Both the position numbers and the translations under genes were made by a program. Below, in pieces: positions 320 through 54,065 of a stretch of 64,000 bases of DNA. Source of the DNA: a virus; IMG/VR virus record IMGVR_UViG_3300027848_000009, positions 1-64,000 of that record; one strand, 5' to 3'. Each line of letters begins with the position of its first letter. The stretch's first letter is position 1. Under the pieces are notes generated by a model. It worked only from the letters and a program-made list of their open reading frames with translations. It ran no database searches and was not told where the DNA came from.

Positions 320-867
320 TGACGACAGACCAGAGGGTCCAGCAGGTTGTACTACCGGAAGGCGTGGCCCGCAACATGTTCCCTGTCGTCACCGTCGTTC
401 GTGATCCGCACAACTTGCCGCCGACGATCACGTGGCTGGCAGGCCCGATCGAGTGCGAATGGTGCGTCGGTGAAGGCTGGCTATATGGCGACCCCGACCA
501 TTACGAGCGAGGGACCGAAGCGACAATGGTTTGTGAGGGCGACGACGGTGAGCCGACATGTCTTGGTCTGGGCTATCCGCCCATCGTTGAGGTTGTCAGC
601 GAACGTCTGGTGTGGACACGGGGGCAACCGTTAACCGTTCACGGTCGGCTTGCACTCGGGACACCCGTACCCGTCCACGGTGAGGACGATCAATCGTGGG
701 ATTGGGTGCCGTCGATCGAGATAGGGGACGAGGGCGCATGGTACTACTACGACCAGGCGTACTGCGATGACCCGAGCATCGAGACAAAGCCATCTGACAT
801 CTCGGACACCGTGGCTGGCACGCTCGTGCCTGGCGGTGTCGCCTATCCGGTGACGGTGGCGACATGA
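316..867 (+). CDS. DnaJ-type zinc-knuckle protein, copy 1 of a duplicated gene
   Basis: 183 residues. Residues 47-52 read CEWCVG followed by EGW, and a later C/GLGY motif follows, resembling the CxxCxGxG zinc-binding repeats of DnaJ and similar phage proteins. The second half (from about residue 109) is almost identical to the second half of the protein at 41464-41988, while the first half has diverged. The conserved half is rich in Trp, Tyr and Asp. The function is unknown; zinc binding is inferred from the cysteines. The ATGA overlap with the next gene is kept in both copies. Confidence 0.7.
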   Translation: MMTTDQRVQQVVLPEGVARNMFPVVTVVRDPHNLPPTITWLAGPIECEWCVGEGWLYGDPDHYERGTEATMVCEGDDGEPTCLGLGYPPIVEVVSERLVWTRGQPLTVHGRLALGTPVPVHGEDDQSWDWVPSIEIGDEGAWYYYDQAYCDDPSIETKPSDISDTVAGTLVPGGVAYPVTVAT

Positions 868-1076
868 GCAACGACCGTGTTTACTTGACTACCAGCCACT
901 ACCGCCACCACTCCACAAAGACGCTTGCCGACACTCTGGCGGAAGCCAGCCGGACCGACTGGACGCCGTTCGATGTCTACGAAATCGACCTAACCCGACC
1001 TGATCGGCCGTCGATCCGTCTTGTCGCTTCACGCAGCAAAGGTGATCCGCCCCCGGTGACGGTGGAGACGCCGTGA
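864..1076 (+). CDS. small hypothetical protein, copy 1 of a duplicated gene
   Basis: 70 residues, starting at an ATGA overlap. The first 70 residues are the same as those of the gene at 41985-42221. Here the frame ends at TGA, whereas the second copy has CGA at that codon and reads eight residues further. It contains a short basic N-terminal stretch (YRHHSTKT). No family recognised. Close identity over a 41-kb distance points to a recent duplication or gene conversion. Confidence 0.65.
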   Translation: MSNDRVYLTTSHYRHHSTKTLADTLAEASRTDWTPFDVYEIDLTRPDRPSIRLVASRSKGDPPPVTVETP

Positions 1077-1209
1077 GATGCGCACACTGTCACCTGTTGA
1101 TCCATCAGGCGAAAAACACCGACCGGACGTGGCGACATGAAACAACCGGGCGCACCTCATGCGTCTCCAACGTCGCCACACCCCATCACGCACCAGAAAG
1201 GCCAGCACC

Positions 1210-1422
1210 ATGACCACCAACCGAGCAGACACGAAGAACCACTGTGTGCATTGCGAACGCCAGATCACCCTCGATACGAGGTGGGCCCGCCCGAAAGGAT
1301 CATTGGGCATCTGGTATCACGACGACCTCGTGGACTACGACTCCTCAGGAGAGTCGTGCAACATCGACGACGGCGAGGACAATGAAGCCGAGCCTTACCC
1401 AACCCATACGATTCCTCGATGA
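1210..1422 (+). CDS. small zinc-ribbon protein, copy 1
   Basis: 70 residues. I chose the ATG at 1210 because AGAAAGG lies just upstream and the identical context precedes the second copy at 42260. An HCVHCER motif near residue 10 looks like half of a zinc ribbon, and the C-terminal half is acidic. It ends in an ATGA overlap with the next gene. The copy at 42260-42472 differs at only a few positions. Function unknown. Confidence 0.6.
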   Translation: MTTNRADTKNHCVHCERQITLDTRWARPKGSLGIWYHDDLVDYDSSGESCNIDDGEDNEAEPYPTHTIPR

Positions 1423-1754
1423 GCGCCTTCCGCCATACCCGCCCGATGGTCGGCCACATGAGCGACCGAGGCTTCTGGCATTCTGGCGCTCGGTCGGTCT
1501 GCTCGAAGTGTGACGACAAGAGCCACTCGGCTCACCCCGGCAAGACTGTCTGCCAGTTTTGTCGGCTCGACCTCGGCGACGTGATCGAGAAGAGAGTCCA
1601 CGCCACGGTCACTCACGGCCGAGGCGAACAGCCAACCAGATTCTCTGCTTGCCGCTCGGGCGATTGCAACGAGCGTGTGTTTGTCGGCTCGACCTGCGAA
1701 GCCTGCAACACCTACCAAGATCCGAACAACCAAACCATAGGAGAAACGAAATGA
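1419..1754 (+). CDS. zinc-ribbon protein with several CxxC pairs
   Basis: 111 residues with CSKC, CQFC, CRSGDC and CEAC motifs spread through the chain, probably two zinc ribbons. Small cysteine-rich proteins like this are common in actinophage accessory regions and their roles are mostly unknown. It is coupled to both neighbours by ATGA overlaps. The duplicated segment ends just inside its start: the gene in the same place after the second copy begins with the same five residues and then differs completely. Confidence 0.6.
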   Translation: MSAFRHTRPMVGHMSDRGFWHSGARSVCSKCDDKSHSAHPGKTVCQFCRLDLGDVIEKRVHATVTHGRGEQPTRFSACRSGDCNERVFVGSTCEACNTYQDPNNQTIGETK

Positions 1755-2435: not shown

Positions 2436-2496
2436 CCAGAATAGTTTCGGGCGAGGGGTTGACGACCCGACTCGGGTCGGATAGAGTGAGGGTATG
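2436..2496 (+). promoter_or_regulatory. palindromic promoter cassette, copy 1 (leaderless)
   Basis: An AATAGTTTCGGG block (2440-2451) is followed seven bases later by a -35 TTGACG (2459-2464), a 17-bp spacer and a -10 TAGAGT (2482-2487). The palindrome CGACCCGACTCGGGTCG (2463-2479) fills the spacer, so a dimeric regulator bound there would block RNA polymerase. The ATG at 2494 is seven bases past the -10, where transcription should start. Confidence 0.85.
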
Positions 2497-2886: not shown

Positions 2887-2897
2887 TCCCCCGTGGC

Positions 2898-2966
2898 CCT
2901 CGGCTCCCGCCGAGGCGCTGCGATGATCTCCCGAGTTCGCCACAGGCTCGGGAGATCATCGGAGCG
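2898..2966 (+). ncRNA. two-hairpin leader element, copy A
   Basis: Hairpin 1 pairs CCTCGGC (2898-2904) with GCCGAGG (2909-2915). Hairpin 2 pairs 15 bases at 2921-2935 with 2947-2961 without a mismatch. Outside it a conserved G-G mismatch (2920/2962) and an outer stem CGCT/AGCG follow. The same plan recurs at 3785 and 32825 with different stem sequences. It lies 30 bases before the start of the next gene. Confidence 0.7.
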
Positions 2967-2995
2967 ACCGCTCCACCGACCAGAAGGACAATCAA

Positions 2996-3334
2996 ATGAG
3001 AAATCAGATCGAATCCGAAATCAGGCCTGGCACTTTCGTCGGCTTGTCGGCTCGTTGCGTCGAGGAGAACCGAGCGTCGTACAGACTACTTTCGACAGAG
3101 GTGAGCCGTTGGGAACGAATCGGTGGCCCAGCCGACGGCGAGACATACTTCGGCGGCACGCTCAACTCCGGCCCGATGCACGCTGGCGCTTGGACCGACT
3201 CCGACGGAAAGTTCCGTCACGGCACGTTCAGCTGCCATCAAGTCACCGACGTGGATCTTTCCAATCCTCGCAAGCTCGTCATCATGACGACGGACGGCGA
3301 GATCACCATCGACATCTTCGAGGAGCAGTCGTGA
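2996..3334 (+). CDS. hypothetical phage protein
   Basis: 112 residues, predicted mostly beta, with no membrane segment. The ATG follows an AGAAGGA ribosome-binding site and lies downstream of two-hairpin element A, so its expression could be set by that structure. It overlaps the next gene by a GTGA. No family recognised. Confidence 0.65.
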   Translation: MRNQIESEIRPGTFVGLSARCVEENRASYRLLSTEVSRWERIGGPADGETYFGGTLNSGPMHAGAWTDSDGKFRHGTFSCHQVTDVDLSNPRKLVIMTTDGEITIDIFEEQS

Positions 3335-3773: not shown

Positions 3774-3784
3774 ACACGAAGCGA

Positions 3785-3899
3785 CCTCGGCTCTGACGGC
3801 CGAGCGTTGCGATGAATCCATCAAGCCGAGAACGGTCGCCGCAAGGTCCGTCGGGGTCCGTCTGTTCCCTCATTGAGACTTGGTGGATTCATCGGAGCG
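3785..3899 (+). ncRNA. two-hairpin leader element, copy B
   Basis: Hairpin 1 is CCTCGGC (3785-3791) with GCCGAG (3799-3804). Hairpin 2 pairs 16 bases at 3810-3825 with 3879-3894, with a single T-G wobble, around a long loop. The conserved G-G mismatch (3809/3895) and outer CGTT/AGCG pairing are present. The hairpin 2 arms share almost nothing with copy A beyond CGATGA yet remain complementary. Confidence 0.7.
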
Positions 3900-3930
3900 A
3901 ACCAGCCCCACCTACAGGAAGCCGAACCTG

Positions 3931-4669: not shown

Positions 4670-5141
4670 ACCGATTGAACAGCCCTCGATGCTCGACGAG
4701 CACAAGGAGCGGATCATCCAGATGAAGCTGGCCGGTATCAGCGACCGGCAGATTGCTGATTCGCTCGGCGTGTCGAACTCGGCTGTCTCTCGGTATGTGA
4801 AGCGGGCGTCGGTGCAGTCGGCGATCGACGTTGCTCACGGCGCTCTCGTCAAGCGCGCTCAGCATCAGATGGCGATGGCGCTTGGCCTTGCTACGCAGAC
4901 GTTGATTCATTACGCCAGCATGGAGAACTTCGATACGATCCCTCATCAGCATCGGTTGAAAGCGACCGAGCTGCTCATCAGCGCTTCGGGCGCTTCTCGC
5001 TCGGTCGAGGTGAATGCGTTGTTGGCGGTGTCGGTGACGGAGATCGCTGCGAACTCTGCTCGGTCGAAGGCTGCTGCGATCGAGGCGACGTTGGTGGACA
5101 CCCCGGTCGGCGAGATCCCGCCGCTGCGGCTCGCCGAATAA
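4653..5141 (+). CDS. terminase small subunit
   Basis: 162 residues. An N-terminal helix-turn-helix (about residues 20-50, LAGISDRQIADSLGVSNSAV) resembles those of phage terminase small subunits, followed by a helical region likely used for oligomerisation. It should recognise the packaging site and load the large subunit, encoded 190 bases downstream. AGAAAG precedes the ATG. Position and domain support the call; sequence identity to a known family could not be tested here. Confidence 0.75.
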   Translation: MPKKPEPIEQPSMLDEHKERIIQMKLAGISDRQIADSLGVSNSAVSRYVKRASVQSAIDVAHGALVKRAQHQMAMALGLATQTLIHYASMENFDTIPHQHRLKATELLISASGASRSVEVNALLAVSVTEIAANSARSKAAAIEATLVDTPVGEIPPLRLAE

Positions 5142-5142
5142 C

Positions 5143-5182
5143 GCATACGGTACACGGCATCTTCCCGTGTACGGTATGCGGC
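5143..5182 (+). promoter_or_regulatory. inverted repeat and promoter of the RHH gene
   Basis: Arms GCATACGGTACACGG (5143-5157) and CCGTGTACGGTATGC (5165-5179) match at 14 of 15 positions. A -10 TACGGT (5170-5175) lies in the right arm, seven bases from ATG 5183. It is a plausible autoregulatory operator for the ribbon-helix-helix protein that follows. Confidence 0.7.
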
Positions 5183-5332
5183 ATGTCCAGACCCAAGACC
5201 AAGGGTGACTCGATCTCGCTTCGGCTACCGATCGAACACGACCGGAAGCTCCGAGAGTTCGCTGAGGCGAAGAACGAGACACCCGCCGAAGTGATCCTTC
5301 GGGTCATGGGGCGATCGCTGGACGCCCAGTGA
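5183..5332 (+). CDS. ribbon-helix-helix (CopG/Arc-like) regulator
   Basis: 49 residues. A beta strand (DSISLRLP), a helix (EHDRKLREFAEAKN), a turn and a second helix (TPAEVILRVMGRSL) make a typical RHH fold. Such proteins bind inverted repeats as dimers, and a 15-bp inverted repeat lies directly upstream. The stop overlaps the terminase large subunit start as GTGA, so it could control packaging-gene expression. Start chosen from the -10 spacing; a leaderless mRNA is likely. Confidence 0.7.
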   Translation: MSRPKTKGDSISLRLPIEHDRKLREFAEAKNETPAEVILRVMGRSLDAQ

Positions 5333-10101: not shown

Positions 10102-10154
10102 TTTCGGGTTGAGGGTTGACGACCCGACTCGGGTCGGATAAGATGATTGACATG
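10093..10154 (+). promoter_or_regulatory. palindromic promoter cassette, copy 2 (leaderless)
   Basis: Upstream block 10093-10108, -35 TTGACG (10116-10121), 17-bp spacer containing the CGACCCGACTCGGGTCG palindrome, -10 TAAGAT (10139-10144), ATG 10152 seven bases later. The upstream block supplies the TAG stop of the MuF gene, so the cassette is fused to the gene end. Confidence 0.85.
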
Positions 10155-10918: not shown

Positions 10919-10936
10919 GTCGATCAGCCAGTCAGC

Positions 10937-10970
10937 GAGCGCCCCGACCGGAACATGGGTCGGGGCGCTC
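10937..10970 (+). terminator. intrinsic terminator
   Basis: GAGCGCCCCGACC (10937-10949) pairs perfectly with 10958-10970 around an eight-base loop and is followed by TTTGCGTT. It closes the unit begun at cassette 2. Confidence 0.85.
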
Positions 10971-11036
10971 TTTGCGTTCCGGGACACCCACCGGGTTCGA
11001 GCATGACGGTCCACCTCCGATCGGCCCGTATGGGTC

Positions 11037-12753: not shown

Positions 12754-14340
12754 ATGGACACCAATCTTCCCGAATCCTTCGACGGCATCACCGATGCTGA
12801 GCTTGACGCAATGGAAGCGTCGATCATCGAAGAGTTCGACGCAAAGTACGACAACGACACCCCGGCACCAGTCGCCGACCTGACCGAGATCGCCGAGGCA
12901 CTCGATGCCGTGCGCTCCGAGCAGGCTGCCCGCACCGAGCAGGCTGACGCCGACTCCGAGGCGCGCGCTGCTCTCGGTGACCGGGTTCGCCCAGTCGCCG
13001 AAGAAGATGTCTTCGAGGAGATCGTCGCCGAAGTCGTCGAAGAGATCGAAGTTGCCGAAGAGCTGGAGTTGGTCACCGCCAGCCTCAAGCCGAAGGCACC
13101 GTCCGCTCGCCGCATGGCGACTCGCGACGTGACTCCTCCCGCTGCCGAAGCGAAGCAGATGACAACGATCACTGCCGCTGCCGACATCCCTGGAATCACT
13201 TCCGGCTCGCAGCTCGACCGCATGGGACTGGCACGAGCATTCGCTGCCCGTTCCCGTGGCCTCGCTGACCACTCGCCTCGTGTGGGTGTCGCAACCGTGG
13301 ACACCGGAATCCCCGAAGAGCACTTCGTGCGTGACGGTGGAGACTCCGCCTCGCAGGTCATGGAAGCGGTCGTCGCTTCCTCGCTCCGTGGCAAAGATGC
13401 CCAGTCCCTCGTCGCTTCGGGTGGCTTCTGCACCCCGTCGGAGAACATGTACGAGCTGTTCAGCATCGAAAGCCGTGACGGTCTTCTCGACCTCCCGACG
13501 ATGGGCGTGTCACGCGGTGGCATCAACATCCCGAGTTACATCGGCTTGTCCGATGTTTCTTCGGCGCTGTGGACCTGGACGGAGGCGACCGACATCACGC
13601 CGGGCGCATCGGTCAAGGCTTGCCTGCAAGTTCCGTGCCCGACCTGGACTGACTACCGGCTCATCGCCGAGGGTCTGTGCTTGACGGCTGGCAACTTCAT
13701 GGACAAGAGCTACCCCGAGATGCTGGCCCGCACGACGGACCTCGCGATGACCGCCCACATGCACCGTGTGTCGGCAGCTCATCTCGCAGCCATCGTCGCC
13801 GGGGCAACCGCGGTCACCGTGACCTCGCTCCCGACCGACGCCGCTGGCGACATCCTGAGCGCCGTAGACCTTCAAGTCGCTGACTACCGGAGCACCTTCA
13901 CGATGTCTCCGAACGCAGTGCTCGAAGCGGTCTTCCCGACCTGGGTTCGTGGAGCAATCCGCTCCACCCTCGCAGCCCGTGCAGGCATCGGATACTTCGA
14001 TGTCAGCGACGAGGACATCACCCGGTTCTTCACGATCCGCGGTGTGCGTCCTCAGTTCGTGACCGGACAAGATCCGATCACGACCGGCACAGCGCTCACG
14101 GCATGGCCGACGACGACCACCTTCCTGCTGTTCCCGGCAGGCGGCTACGTCGCAGGCGACGGCGGCACGATCGACCTCGGTGTCGTTCGTGACTCGACGC
14201 TCAACGCAACCAACGACTTCACGTTGGCTTGGACGGAGCAGTTCATGCTGACCGCCCAGCGTGGTCCTGCTGCACGCAACGTCACCGTCTCGACGGTTGT
14301 TGACGGGCAGACCGGCGGACCTGAGTTCGTCGGAGCCTGA
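12754..14340 (+). CDS. major capsid protein (HK97 fold) with N-terminal acidic scaffold-like region
   Basis: 528 residues. Residues 1-130 are very acidic and helical, resembling the delta or scaffold domain that HK97-type capsid proteins lose on maturation. The rest fits actinophage capsid proteins: about residue 220 has GGFCTPSENMYELFSI, and MSRGGI-like and FVTGQDPITTG stretches follow. It assembles the icosahedral shell. A strong AGGAGG site suggests high expression, and a terminator follows. This gene differs from the second capsid gene at 52740-54065. Confidence 0.88.
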   Translation: MDTNLPESFDGITDAELDAMEASIIEEFDAKYDNDTPAPVADLTEIAEALDAVRSEQAARTEQADADSEARAALGDRVRPVAEEDVFEEIVAEVVEEIEVAEELELVTASLKPKAPSARRMATRDVTPPAAEAKQMTTITAAADIPGITSGSQLDRMGLARAFAARSRGLADHSPRVGVATVDTGIPEEHFVRDGGDSASQVMEAVVASSLRGKDAQSLVASGGFCTPSENMYELFSIESRDGLLDLPTMGVSRGGINIPSYIGLSDVSSALWTWTEATDITPGASVKACLQVPCPTWTDYRLIAEGLCLTAGNFMDKSYPEMLARTTDLAMTAHMHRVSAAHLAAIVAGATAVTVTSLPTDAAGDILSAVDLQVADYRSTFTMSPNAVLEAVFPTWVRGAIRSTLAARAGIGYFDVSDEDITRFFTIRGVRPQFVTGQDPITTGTALTAWPTTTTFLLFPAGGYVAGDGGTIDLGVVRDSTLNATNDFTLAWTEQFMLTAQRGPAARNVTVSTVVDGQTGGPEFVGA

Positions 14341-14353
14341 GTAAGTTTCTGAG

Positions 14354-14391
14354 GATCGACGCAACCTTCTCCCCTGGGGGTTGCGTCGGTC
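14354..14391 (+). terminator. intrinsic terminator after the capsid gene
   Basis: CGACGCAACC (14357-14366) pairs perfectly with 14379-14388, extendable by GAT/GTC at the base, with a CCCC/GGGG loop. The T tract is weak (CTTTGGTT), so it may attenuate and not fully stop transcription. Confidence 0.75.
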
Positions 14392-14432
14392 CTTTGGTTC
14401 GGTTCAACTAACACGAGATCAAAGAGGCAACA

Positions 14433-32256: not shown

Positions 32257-32318
32257 CCAGAATAGTTTCGGGTTGAGGGTTGACGACCCGACTCGGGTCG
32301 GATAGAGTGATTGACATG
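32257..32318 (+). promoter_or_regulatory. palindromic promoter cassette, copy 3 (leaderless)
   Basis: Upstream block 32257-32272, -35 TTGACG (32280-32285), palindromic 17-bp spacer, -10 TAGAGT (32303-32308) and ATG 32316 seven bases later. Unlike copies 1, 2 and 4 it does not abut a rightward gene; it forms a divergent control region with the leftward promoter. Confidence 0.85.
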
Positions 32319-32815: not shown

Positions 32816-32824
32816 GCGAAGCGA

Positions 32825-32882
32825 CCTCGGCTACGGCCGAGCGTTGCGAAGGTCTTCCCGAGTCGGGCGGATCTTCGGAGCG
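32825..32882 (+). ncRNA. two-hairpin leader element, copy C
   Basis: Hairpin 1 is CCTCGGC (32825-32831) with GCCGAG (32836-32841). Hairpin 2 pairs CGAAGGTC (32847-32854) with GATCTTCG (32870-32877). The G-G mismatch (32846/32878) and outer CGTT/AGCG are conserved. The apical part contains CCCGAGTCGGG, the core of the promoter palindrome. The DUF932-like gene starts 36 bases later. Confidence 0.7.
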
Positions 32883-32917
32883 ATCCCCGCTTCCACCAAG
32901 CAAGAAAGAATGGCACC

Positions 32918-34111: not shown

Positions 34112-34122
34112 CCCGATAAGCA

Positions 34123-34168
34123 AACCTGCCCGGCCACCTCGCAATCGTGCGGAGTGGCCGGGCAGGTT
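34123..34168 (+). terminator. strong intrinsic hairpin terminator
   Basis: AACCTGCCCGGCCAC (34123-34137) pairs perfectly over 15 bp with 34154-34168. The T tract is poor (AGGGTTGT), but the stem is the strongest in the window. TAGGG...CCCTA follows at 34168-34183. Confidence 0.8.
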
Positions 34169-34209
34169 AGGGTTGTCGCCCTACCAAGAACTCGAACCGA
34201 GGAGAAGAA

Positions 34210-41467: not shown

Positions 41468-41988
41468 TCCCGCAATTGATCTTCCCGGCAGACGTGGCTA
41501 GCAAGATGTTCCCGGCGGACAGCAAATGGCTGCTACCCAACGAGCCGCCGTCGATCACGTGGCTGGCAGGCCAGGTGGTCTGCGAGGCGTGCGACGGCTG
41601 TGGCGACATCAGTTACCCAGAATGGGAAGGCAGGCGCCAGCCGTGTAGCGACTGCGACACGCTCGGCTATCCGCCCATCGTTGAGATCGTCAGCCAACAT
41701 TTTGGTCATCGTCGGGCTGTCCCTGAATTGGGGATTCAGCAGAACGTTGTCATCACCGTGCACGGTCGGCTTGCACTCGGGGCACCTGTACCGGTCCACG
41801 GTGAGGACGATCAATCGTGGGATTGGGTGCCGTCGATCGAGATAGGGGACGAGGGCGCATGGTACTACTACGACCAGGCGTACTGCGATGACCCGAGCAT
41901 CGAGACAAAGCCATCTGACATCTCGGACACCGTGGCTGGCACGCTCGTGCCTGGCGGTGTCGCCTATCCGGTGACGGTGGCGACATGA
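41464..41988 (+). CDS. DnaJ-type zinc-knuckle protein, copy 2 of a duplicated gene
   Basis: 174 residues. CEACDGCGD and CSDCDTLGY are two DnaJ-like CxxCxGxG repeats, better preserved than in copy 1 (316-867). The last 75 residues are nearly the same in both. The first halves share only a general plan, so the two copies have drifted in the zinc-binding part while the rest was kept or homogenised. Confidence 0.7.
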   Translation: MIPQLIFPADVASKMFPADSKWLLPNEPPSITWLAGQVVCEACDGCGDISYPEWEGRRQPCSDCDTLGYPPIVEIVSQHFGHRRAVPELGIQQNVVITVHGRLALGAPVPVHGEDDQSWDWVPSIEIGDEGAWYYYDQAYCDDPSIETKPSDISDTVAGTLVPGGVAYPVTVAT

Positions 41989-42215
41989 GCAACGACCGTG
42001 TTTACTTGACTACCAGCCACTACCGCCACCACTCCACAAAGACGCTTGCCGACACTCTGGCGGAAGCCAGCCGGACCGACTGGACGCCGTTCGATGTCTA
42101 CGAAATCGACCTAACCCGACCTGATCGGCCGTCGATCCGTCTTGTCGCTTCACGCAGCAAAGGTGATCCGCCCCCGGTGACGGTGGAGACGCCGCGAGAT
42201 GCGCACACTGTCACC
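41761..42215 (+). repeat. near-identical duplicate of 640-1094
   Basis: By eye only a handful of mismatches over about 455 bp (for example positions 661-676 and the TGA/CGA change at 1074). The copies are a constant 41121 bases apart. A second block follows after a length difference of 71 bases. Confidence 0.85.
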
Positions 42216-42221
42216 AGTTGA
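41985..42221 (+). CDS. small hypothetical protein, copy 2 of a duplicated gene
   Basis: 78 residues; the first 70 match the gene at 864-1076. The TGA there is CGA here and the frame ends eight codons later. No family recognised. Confidence 0.65.
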   Translation: MSNDRVYLTTSHYRHHSTKTLADTLAEASRTDWTPFDVYEIDLTRPDRPSIRLVASRSKGDPPPVTVETPRDAHTVTS

Positions 42222-42226
42222 TCTAT

Positions 42227-42477
42227 CACACCCCATCACGCACCAGAAAGGCCAGCACCATGACCACCAACCGAGCAGACACGAAGAACCACTGCGTGCA
42301 TTGCGAACGCCAGATCACCCTCGATACGAGGTGGCCCCGCCCGAAAGGATCATTGGGCATCTGGTATCACGACGACCTTTTGGACTACGACTCCTCAGGC
42401 TATTCGTGCGGCCTCGACGACGGCGAAGACAACGAAGCCGAGCCTTACTCAACCCAGACGATTCCTCGATGAGTGCC
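42227..42477 (+). repeat. duplicate of 1177-1427
   Basis: Covers the zinc-ribbon gene and its ribosome-binding site; offset 41050. Copy 1 has 71 bases more than copy 2 between the two blocks. Divergence resumes at both ends, including in the next gene. Confidence 0.8.
42260..42472 (+). CDS. small zinc-ribbon protein, copy 2
   Basis: 70 residues, HCVHCER motif, nearly the same as 1210-1422 with changes clustered around residues 45-60 (SGYSCGLDD instead of SGESCNIDD). ATGA overlap with the next gene as in copy 1. Confidence 0.6.
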   Translation: MTTNRADTKNHCVHCERQITLDTRWPRPKGSLGIWYHDDLLDYDSSGYSCGLDDGEDNEAEPYSTQTIPR

Positions 42478-42669
42478 TTCCGCATGGAGCGCGACATGAG
42501 CGACCCGATCCTCATCGGCGGCGACTGGCTCGAAGACCCTGGCAGTCGTTACGTGCCGGTGGACTACCAGTCGGTGTTGGCGACTGTGACGGCTGGTATG
42601 GGGACACGTCAAGTCGATTACGAAGAAGCGTTGCTTTCCCACACAGAGTCAGGTAACCTGTTGACATGA
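42469..42669 (+). CDS. hypothetical small protein
   Basis: 66 residues. Only the first five residues are shared with the gene at the same place after copy 1, marking the right edge of the duplication. Ends in an ATGA overlap with the macro-domain gene. Confidence 0.55.
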   Translation: MSAFRMERDMSDPILIGGDWLEDPGSRYVPVDYQSVLATVTAGMGTRQVDYEEALLSHTESGNLLT

Positions 42670-52739: not shown

Positions 52740-54065
52740 TTAGGCGTCTGCTGGTGCGGAGTTGAAGCTGACGGAGACGAAGGCCTCCGGACGCTTGACC
52801 GCGAGGGCCAGACGCTGCTCTGCGAGCACCACGATCGCGTTGCGAACGAAGAAGTCCGAGTGCTGCTCGGAGATCCGGATGTTCGCTTGCTCTCGATCGT
52901 ACAACTGGGCGCCGGTACCGAACGCACCGACGAGAGCGGTGCCCTCATCGATGGCCGGGGTCTCGACGACCGGGAGACGCCACACACGCGGTTCGCCACC
53001 AAGGGCGACCGAGATGGCTACGAGGTACTGACCGTTGCTGTCCTTGGTCAACTCGATGTCTTCCCAGTCGTTCGGGTGAAGAACGACGCCGGTCGGCTCG
53101 TAGTAGGCAAGGAACGACAGCGTGGCGGCGCGACGAATCGCGTCAGCCTTGGTGTCGGGAACCGGTAAGGTTGCGCCGCTGGACCAGTTGTATGTCTGGA
53201 TGCCAGCAGTGTTCAGCACACCCTCAAGGTTCTCGCCGGTGCCGTCACCAGAGAGGATTTGAGCGTCCTCCTGAAGGCGGAGGCCGTACATCAACTCGTT
53301 GTCGATGATCGAACGCAACTGCGGCTCGTCGGCGAGCACGTTGCGGTGAGCGGCTTCCCAGTGAGCAATGGTCCGCACGGGCGCCTGAACGCCAGTGAAG
53401 GTCATAGCGGACTGCGGCTTGACGCCGAACACGTTAGGCGTACCTGCCGTGCGTTCTGCCACGGTGGCGGCGTTGTTCGTGAATCCTGTCATCCGGAAGT
53501 ACTCGACAATTGCTGCCGAGGTGGTTCGTACCGGGAACAGGTCGCGAACACGCTTGGTGCGCATCGGCGGGATGACGATGGGGTCACGATCGATCGTACC
53601 GAACTGCCCGGGGGTGCCTGAAGGCATAGCCGAGTAGAGGTCCTTGACGTCGTAGCCGTTGGCTGTGGTGAGGGCACCCTTGTACTGGAAGGGCGACGGC
53701 ATGTTGGCGCCGTTACGTCCACCCTGAAGGGTCTTGAACTCTTCTGAGCCGAGGAATGCTTCGCCAACGGACTTGTACCTGGTGCGAGCCTCGCGGAGGC
53801 CCTCTCCGGCGGCGGCGGCGGCGGCGATGGAGTCGCCTTCAGCCTCGGAAGCCCATGCTTCGACGCTCTCAAGCGACTGAAGGCCGGTGATCAATGACTT
53901 GATCTCCTTGATTTCCGTCATGTTGCTGTCGAATGCCGACTTCTGGGCCTGATCGACAATGACAACGCCGTCTTCGATCTGGAATGAATCTGCGATCGCC
54001 TTGTTTGAGGCGGTCTTTTCTCGGAGCGCGGACTGCAACTCCTTGATGCGGTTTGCATCTTCCAT
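52740..54065 (-). CDS. second major capsid protein (HK97 fold, phage_capsid family)
   Basis: 441 residues. N-terminal coiled region (about 1-115), then KTLQGG..., GTIDRDPIVIPPMRT, VRDLFPVRTTSAAIVEYFRM, YGLRLQEDAQILSGDGTGENLEG and FFVRNAIVVLAEQRLALAVKRPEAF, all characteristic of the HK97-like family. AAGGAGGAGA lies just before the ATG, with a leader of about 110 bases. Unlike the capsid gene at 12754, it is the last gene of a leftward head operon, so a second phage is present here. Confidence 0.93.
   Translation of the reverse strand: MEDANRIKELQSALREKTASNKAIADSFQIEDGVVIVDQAQKSAFDSNMTEIKEIKSLITGLQSLESVEAWASEAEGDSIAAAAAAGEGLREARTRYKSVGEAFLGSEEFKTLQGGRNGANMPSPFQYKGALTTANGYDVKDLYSAMPSGTPGQFGTIDRDPIVIPPMRTKRVRDLFPVRTTSAAIVEYFRMTGFTNNAATVAERTAGTPNVFGVKPQSAMTFTGVQAPVRTIAHWEAAHRNVLADEPQLRSIIDNELMYGLRLQEDAQILSGDGTGENLEGVLNTAGIQTYNWSSGATLPVPDTKADAIRRAATLSFLAYYEPTGVVLHPNDWEDIELTKDSNGQYLVAISVALGGEPRVWRLPVVETPAIDEGTALVGAFGTGAQLYDREQANIRISEQHSDFFVRNAIVVLAEQRLALAVKRPEAFVSVSFNSAPADA

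Follow-up and report, generated by a model that had tools for sequence, protein, structure and literature searches.

To our knowledge, few structured regulatory RNAs have been described for phages of this kind. Among better-known structures, T7-type RNase III sites are long processing hairpins between the cistrons of polycistronic phage mRNA, the duplex cut in vivo comprising about two turns, and trp-type attenuators are made of four segments with mutually exclusive pairings (1-2 and 3-4, or 2-3) near a translated frame. The put RNAs of HK022 (putL and putR) are cis antitermination RNAs, defined by terminator read-through via the beta' zinc-binding domain of RNA polymerase. They are about 70 nt long and consist of two stem-loops, putR being located about 270 nt after its start site (PMC9378689). 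In cluster K mycobacteriophages, SAS/ESAS are cluster-specific repeats with inverted arms, found just upstream of the starts of unrelated genes; RNA pairing of the ESAS arms was not supported (PMC3203893), putative SigA-like promoters were afterwards recognized within ESAS (PMC11373665), and these comparable repeats were judged to be DNA or promoter elements.

The element described here, found in a 64,000-nt stretch of viral DNA (hereafter the window), is predicted to consist of three hairpins, P1, P2 and P3. It resembles putL and putR in its size (about 70-75 nt), its adjacent stem-loops, its presence in at least two copies per phage and, for several copies, a location downstream of promoter-like repeats, which may or may not be early promoters like those preceding put, but it differs in having three hairpins, a fixed close spacing to the start codon and two copies in one operon; this likeness is to the published description of put. 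With SAS/ESAS it shares restriction to a phage group, inverted arms and placement just before the starts of unrelated genes, whereas its pairing covaries, and the promoter repeat is here a separate element. The 13-bp cluster K SAS, GGGATAGGAGCCC, which lies beside the start codon, is absent from the leaders when these are read directly, and a promoter scan revealed no promoter-like site inside the elements on the plus strand, in contrast to the putative SigA-like promoters of ESAS. Unlike T7-type RNase III hairpins, the element has invariant junction bases, flanking P1 and P3 hairpins and, in one copy, a short P2. Like trp-type attenuators, it has four segments with exclusive pairings beside a translated frame, but it lacks a U-tract, and the frame preceding it is that of a complete gene, not of a leader peptide. 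The element matches no Rfam family and is classed here as a new phage cis-RNA family. A phage-restricted, covarying and multi-copy RNA family with near-constant start spacing provides a testable handle on how expression is divided in long operons, and is a possible cis antitermination or insulation part.

Copies in the window and in other phages

The pattern CCTCGGC-loop-GCCGAG-CGYTGCGA has exactly three matches in the window, all on the plus strand (2898, 3785 and 32825), against none expected from 100 shuffles. In each copy a complementary variable stem comes next, and then TCGGAGCGA. The final covariance model, run with filters off over all 64 kb, returned the same three copies and otherwise noise, which confirms the three copies reported in an earlier note on this DNA; the main-stem lengths are also close to those described there. 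Copies 1 and 2 share one operon and are 0.9 kb apart, while copy 3 belongs to a separate operon. As to the extent of the element, the core given previously stands, but its boundaries had to be amended, with a 5' start 5 nt earlier and a later 3' end: the revised starts (GYGRC) are at 2893, 3781 and 32821, and the ends, P3 included, at 2974, 3909 and 32893.

Homologues were collected by a pattern scan of IMG/VR and from loci reached via the terminase and neighbouring proteins. In total, nine distinct copies, which represent only about four independent lineages, were obtained: three in this window and six in other uncultivated phage contigs, i.e. 3300025513_000020 (two copies), 3300009149_000273 (three) and 3300048828_000597 (one). 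Two more contigs, 3300032435_000058 and 3300007522_000080, carry copies identical to the elements of this phage. When the covariance model R2 was run on 88 sources (0.88 Mb), it gave ten matches of at least 47.6 bits, largely sequences that R2 was built from, and no others up to E=10. In further viral pattern scans, the model was passed by already known phages only. The distribution is patchy, because relatives with an approximately 70% identical terminase, one of them a 44-kb contig, lack the element.

The earlier note had proposed a search of phage and actinobacterial genomes. Phage leaders did yield homologues, whereas cultured phages gave only chance-level blastn matches, and a covariance-model search of about 590 sampled actinobacterial genomes gave no credible copy; of these genomes, 193 belong to one class (entry point: an Acidimicrobiia locus) and 397 to one phylum (entry point: a Mycobacterium locus). 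Two weak host-genome matches were rejected, since both fall inside coding genes, one with an amidohydrolase-like frame and one with a hydrogenase-like frame. In a GTDB pattern scan, the full two-hairpin plan was found in none of the matches listed. Absence from host genomes, judged on about 590 sampled genomes and no positive control genome, is only suggestive. The element is a phage-specific family, its carriers being a small number of groups among uncultivated phage contigs.

Predicted fold and competing fold

Folding of the full leaders gave three hairpins that abut without linkers, a fold which is preferred, or within 0.2 kcal/mol of the preferred one, in eight of the nine copies. The parts of the three copies in the window are as follows.

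2893 to 2921, plus strand: copy 1, P1; GTGGC (2893-2897) pairs with GCTGC (2917-2921), inner CCTCGGC/GCCGAGG, bulged C2916 (sequence; fold probability 0.97; pairs kept in 9/9 copies)
2922 to 2960, plus strand: copy 1, P2; variable stem GATGATCTCCCGAG/CTCGGGAGATCATC (sequence, folding, alignment)
2961 to 2974, plus strand: copy 1, P3; GGAGC/GCTCC (fold probability 0.97; alignment)
3781 to 3810, plus strand: copy 2, P1; GCGAC/GTTGC around CTCGGC/GCCGAG, bulged C3805 (sequence, folding, alignment)
3811 to 3893, plus strand: copy 2, P2; 15-bp stem and 53-nt apical domain (3826-3878) (folding, alignment)
3894 to 3909, plus strand: copy 2, P3; GGaGC/GCcCC, one A-C mismatch (folding, alignment)
32821 to 32847, plus strand: copy 3, P1; GCGAC/GTTGC around CTCGGC/GCCGAG, bulged C32842 (sequence, folding, alignment)
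32848 to 32876, plus strand: copy 3, P2; GAAGGTCT/GGATCTTC, inner CCCG/CGGG (sequence, folding)
32877 to 32893, plus strand: copy 3, P3; GGAGCG/CGCTTC (folding)

In this fold, P1 is lengthened by a helix P1x (GYGRC/GYUGC) around a bulged C, P2 is separate, and GGAGC(G) forms P3 with a downstream GCUYC or GCcCC. P1x is fully paired in all nine copies, including one change from A-U to G-C, and P3 in seven, the other two having one A-C mismatch; the P2 stem ranges from 8+4 bp to about 17 bp. The earlier plan of two hairpins with a G-G mismatch is not supported in the form given, as full-leader folding favours the three abutting hairpins in most copies and P1x has a compensatory change of its own. 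The two G residues are indeed conserved in sequence, but they probably form no mismatch in the preferred fold. An internal G-G mismatch is also present in a strong hairpin ahead of the terminase gene.

The apical domain of copy 2, also present in two relatives, consists in the consensus fold of the three sequences of a GNRA-capped hairpin (ACGG..GCAA..CCGU versus ACAG..GCGA..CUGU) and a second small hairpin. Its unpaired strands (GAGA and CATTGAGA) are conserved too.

The CGYU/AGCG helix of the earlier plan possibly represents a competing fold that uses the same invariant bases, often with an outer closing helix (P0) such as GAAGCG/CGCUUC; in copy 3, CGCTTC has a 5' GAAGCG as its alternative partner. 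If the four segments are called a (GCGAC), b (CGYUGC), c (GGAGCG) and d (CGCUUC), the alternatives are a-b with c-d, or b-c with a-d. Compared with the three-hairpin fold, the competing fold gains 3.2 kcal/mol of predicted stability in L006, is practically isoenergetic in copy 3 and L007b, and loses 2 kcal/mol in the copy-1 class and 3.8-4.4 kcal/mol in L031 and the copy-2 pair (4.2-4.4 in the latter, where P0 is missing). Given the three-hairpin fold, chance alone would produce a b-c helix in about 3% of cases. On these energies, the element may be bistable and act as a switch.

Evidence for a conserved RNA structure

In alignment A5 of the nine copies, from which the structure scored on it was also derived, 99.4% of the cells are paired and both partners have changed in 8 of 19 pairs; the letters of A5 had been edited by replacing the P2 apices with GAAA and by trimming one surplus base pair in the win1 class and one surplus A in L031. 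None of 500 shuffles reached these values, and sliding the partner by 1-3 columns lowered pairing to 27-48%. Counted over all arms, plus-strand G·U pairs number 27 and A·C 3 and, relative to shuffles, the plus strand folds better than the minus strand. Stem arms differ widely between copies and are even replaced wholesale with pairing kept; in the most distant copy, L031, P1 is CCCGAC/GTCGGG in place of CTCGGC/GCCGAG.

Because pairing is kept despite divergent arms, and G·U far exceeds A·C on the plus strand, the element is, judging from the sequences, a functional RNA and not a DNA repeat. This agrees with the earlier proposal of a functional RNA based on covariation, now joined by compensatory changes in homologues and a strand asymmetry towards plus-strand RNA. 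A mobile palindrome or protein-binding inverted repeat, acting at the DNA level and having no role as RNA, might be suspected from the several intergenic copies ahead of unrelated genes and from the P2 apex of copy 3, which resembles the promoter operator CCCGA-C-TCGGG. However, the copies have a single orientation relative to genes, and wholesale exchange of arms with pairing retained, the G·U excess and the favoured plus-strand fold all speak against such a repeat, which is already disfavoured and appears very improbable.

Coding sequence was rejected, since win1 and L005 differ by a 1-nt indel in the P1 loop, which disrupts any reading frame. A search for tRNA and tmRNA in the window was negative. 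The earlier note did not recognize a known riboswitch here, and at gathering scores Rfam 15 has no family matching in the window; permissive scans gave only weak sub-threshold matches.

Position in operons and possible functions

In eight of the nine copies the element starts 0-7 nt past the upstream stop codon, and in L110 28 nt past it; the distance from its end to the next start is 28-34 nt in every copy. For the window, where gaps of 28, 30 and 34 nt were found, this bears out the placement in leaders ahead of starts noticed earlier. The downstream genes are unrelated (a 112-aa protein of unknown function, a small membrane-like protein, a phrog_1362 protein and a small acidic protein), and a gene-specific sensor is therefore unlikely.

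We tentatively regard the element as a portable leader acting on the downstream cistron, by control or insulation, via a shared factor, a plausible reading although short of probable, which is favoured because the spacing to starts is near-constant. Sequence family, pairing and position are established here, and from this point on we infer every functional step. A P1-P2-P3 element in the mRNA, directly after a stop codon and directly before the ribosome-binding region of the next gene, would set the expression of that cistron independently of the upstream one. The stable stack of hairpins would insulate or stabilize the leader, and the invariant nucleotides at the P1/P2/P3 junction would be the docking site of one common trans-acting factor, conceivably the ribosome or an RNA-binding protein of phage or host. 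The two exclusive pairings, one joining CGYUGC and GGAGCG to each other and one joining each of them to its outer neighbour, may provide this factor with a switch, which is the least certain step.

A portable leader is consistent with the constant placement despite unrelated genes, with covariation, G·U excess and strand-biased folding, and with the presence of copies in two operons, one of which holds two; the near-equal energies of the exclusive folds in several copies and the rarity of a chance second fold also speak for it. On the other hand, predicted Shine-Dalgarno access is alike in both folds, the tight spacing could merely reflect compact phage genomes, and the independent lineages are few. 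The lack of the outer helix in the copy-2 pair, and the unfavourable competing fold there, are further points against it.

A promoter/terminator scan found no U-tract or terminator-like site at the elements, and between the two folds the mean unpaired probability of the Shine-Dalgarno sequence shifts by 0.1 or less. An intrinsic terminator, i.e. a GC-rich hairpin with a U-tract behind it, was rejected, as was a Shine-Dalgarno-sequestering riboswitch, since neither fold hides that sequence; both mechanisms are thus disfavoured. These results also bear on a ribosome-sensing attenuator, in which a ribosome terminating at the adjacent stop would cover segment a and so select the second fold. Segment a does start within the ribosome footprint in eight of nine copies, and the two exclusive folds lie -3.2 to +4.4 kcal/mol apart, but its output would be unclear because there is no terminator U-tract and Shine-Dalgarno access is unchanged; the distance of 28 nt in L110 and the missing P0 of the copy-2 pair also disagree with this mechanism, which we consider improbable. 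A reusable bistable switch immediately behind stop codons, with the topology of an attenuator (1-2 and 3-4, or else 2-3 and 1-4), whose fold would be selected by the ribosome or a phage factor so as to couple or uncouple cistrons in several operons, is doubtful.

Alternatively, the element could provide processing or stability hairpins, P2 being cut by a double-strand RNase or protecting the ends of neighbouring cistrons. This is favoured because P2 varies freely, its pairing being strict and its sequence and length free, and it suits the intercistronic position, the general use ahead of unrelated genes and the strong hairpins that follow stop codons elsewhere in this phage. Processing would not need the invariant bases at the junction, in P1 and in GGAGCG, however, and the P2 of copy 3 has only 8+4 bp, so we see it as possible but on the unlikely side. 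The other strong intercistronic hairpins right after stop codons (5139-5185, 10930-10975, 14350-14395 and 34115-34170) are possibly terminators or processing sites.

Two promoter-like repeats precede the operons carrying the element.

2459 to 2487, plus strand: promoter-like repeat TTGACG-17-TAGAGT (palindromic spacer), ahead of the operon that holds copies 1 and 2 (repeat comparison, consensus scan)
32280 to 32308, plus strand: promoter-like repeat TTGACG-17-TAGAGT, upstream of copy 3

The repeat at 2459 is identical at 32280 and 39823 and has three mismatches at 10116. Operator-containing promoter-like sequences of this type precede copies 1 and 3, L031 and L110 by about 200-510 nt. Two of the four repeats in the window (10116 and 39823) have no element behind them. 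This proximity of promoters favours a put-like cis antitermination, in which the nascent RNA would bind RNA polymerase after an early promoter so that later terminators are passed. The element's length of about 75 nt, abutting stem-loops, invariant junction bases and several copies per genome would fit, as would strong GC hairpins downstream, e.g. at 34.1 kb after gene 48. However, a second copy only 0.9 kb away in the same operon would be superfluous, a near-constant distance to the start codon is unexpected, and promoters of the same family occur with no copy behind; we consider antitermination rather unlikely.

All four promoter-like repeats have the palindromic spacer TTGACGACCCGACTCGGGTCGGATAGAGT and stand directly ahead of a nearly leaderless gene. 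They probably constitute an operator family of the phage; L031 has a variant of it, and the specificity in L110 is a different one. In L113, a relative with a homologue of the gene downstream of copy 1, promoter-like leader sequences at 2470-2530 and 2950-3010 replace the RNA element.

Regarding the record as a whole, window positions 634-1433 and 41755-42483 hold direct repeats, about 41 kb apart and near-identical (98.5% and 94%); past 43 kb (from about 43400) GC falls to about 0.52, having been 0.62 before, and there are genes for two major head proteins that are not related to each other (phrog_777 at 12754 and phrog_10 at 52740). Because of these three features, the 155-kb record is suggested to be a phage of about 41 kb joined to a second phage.
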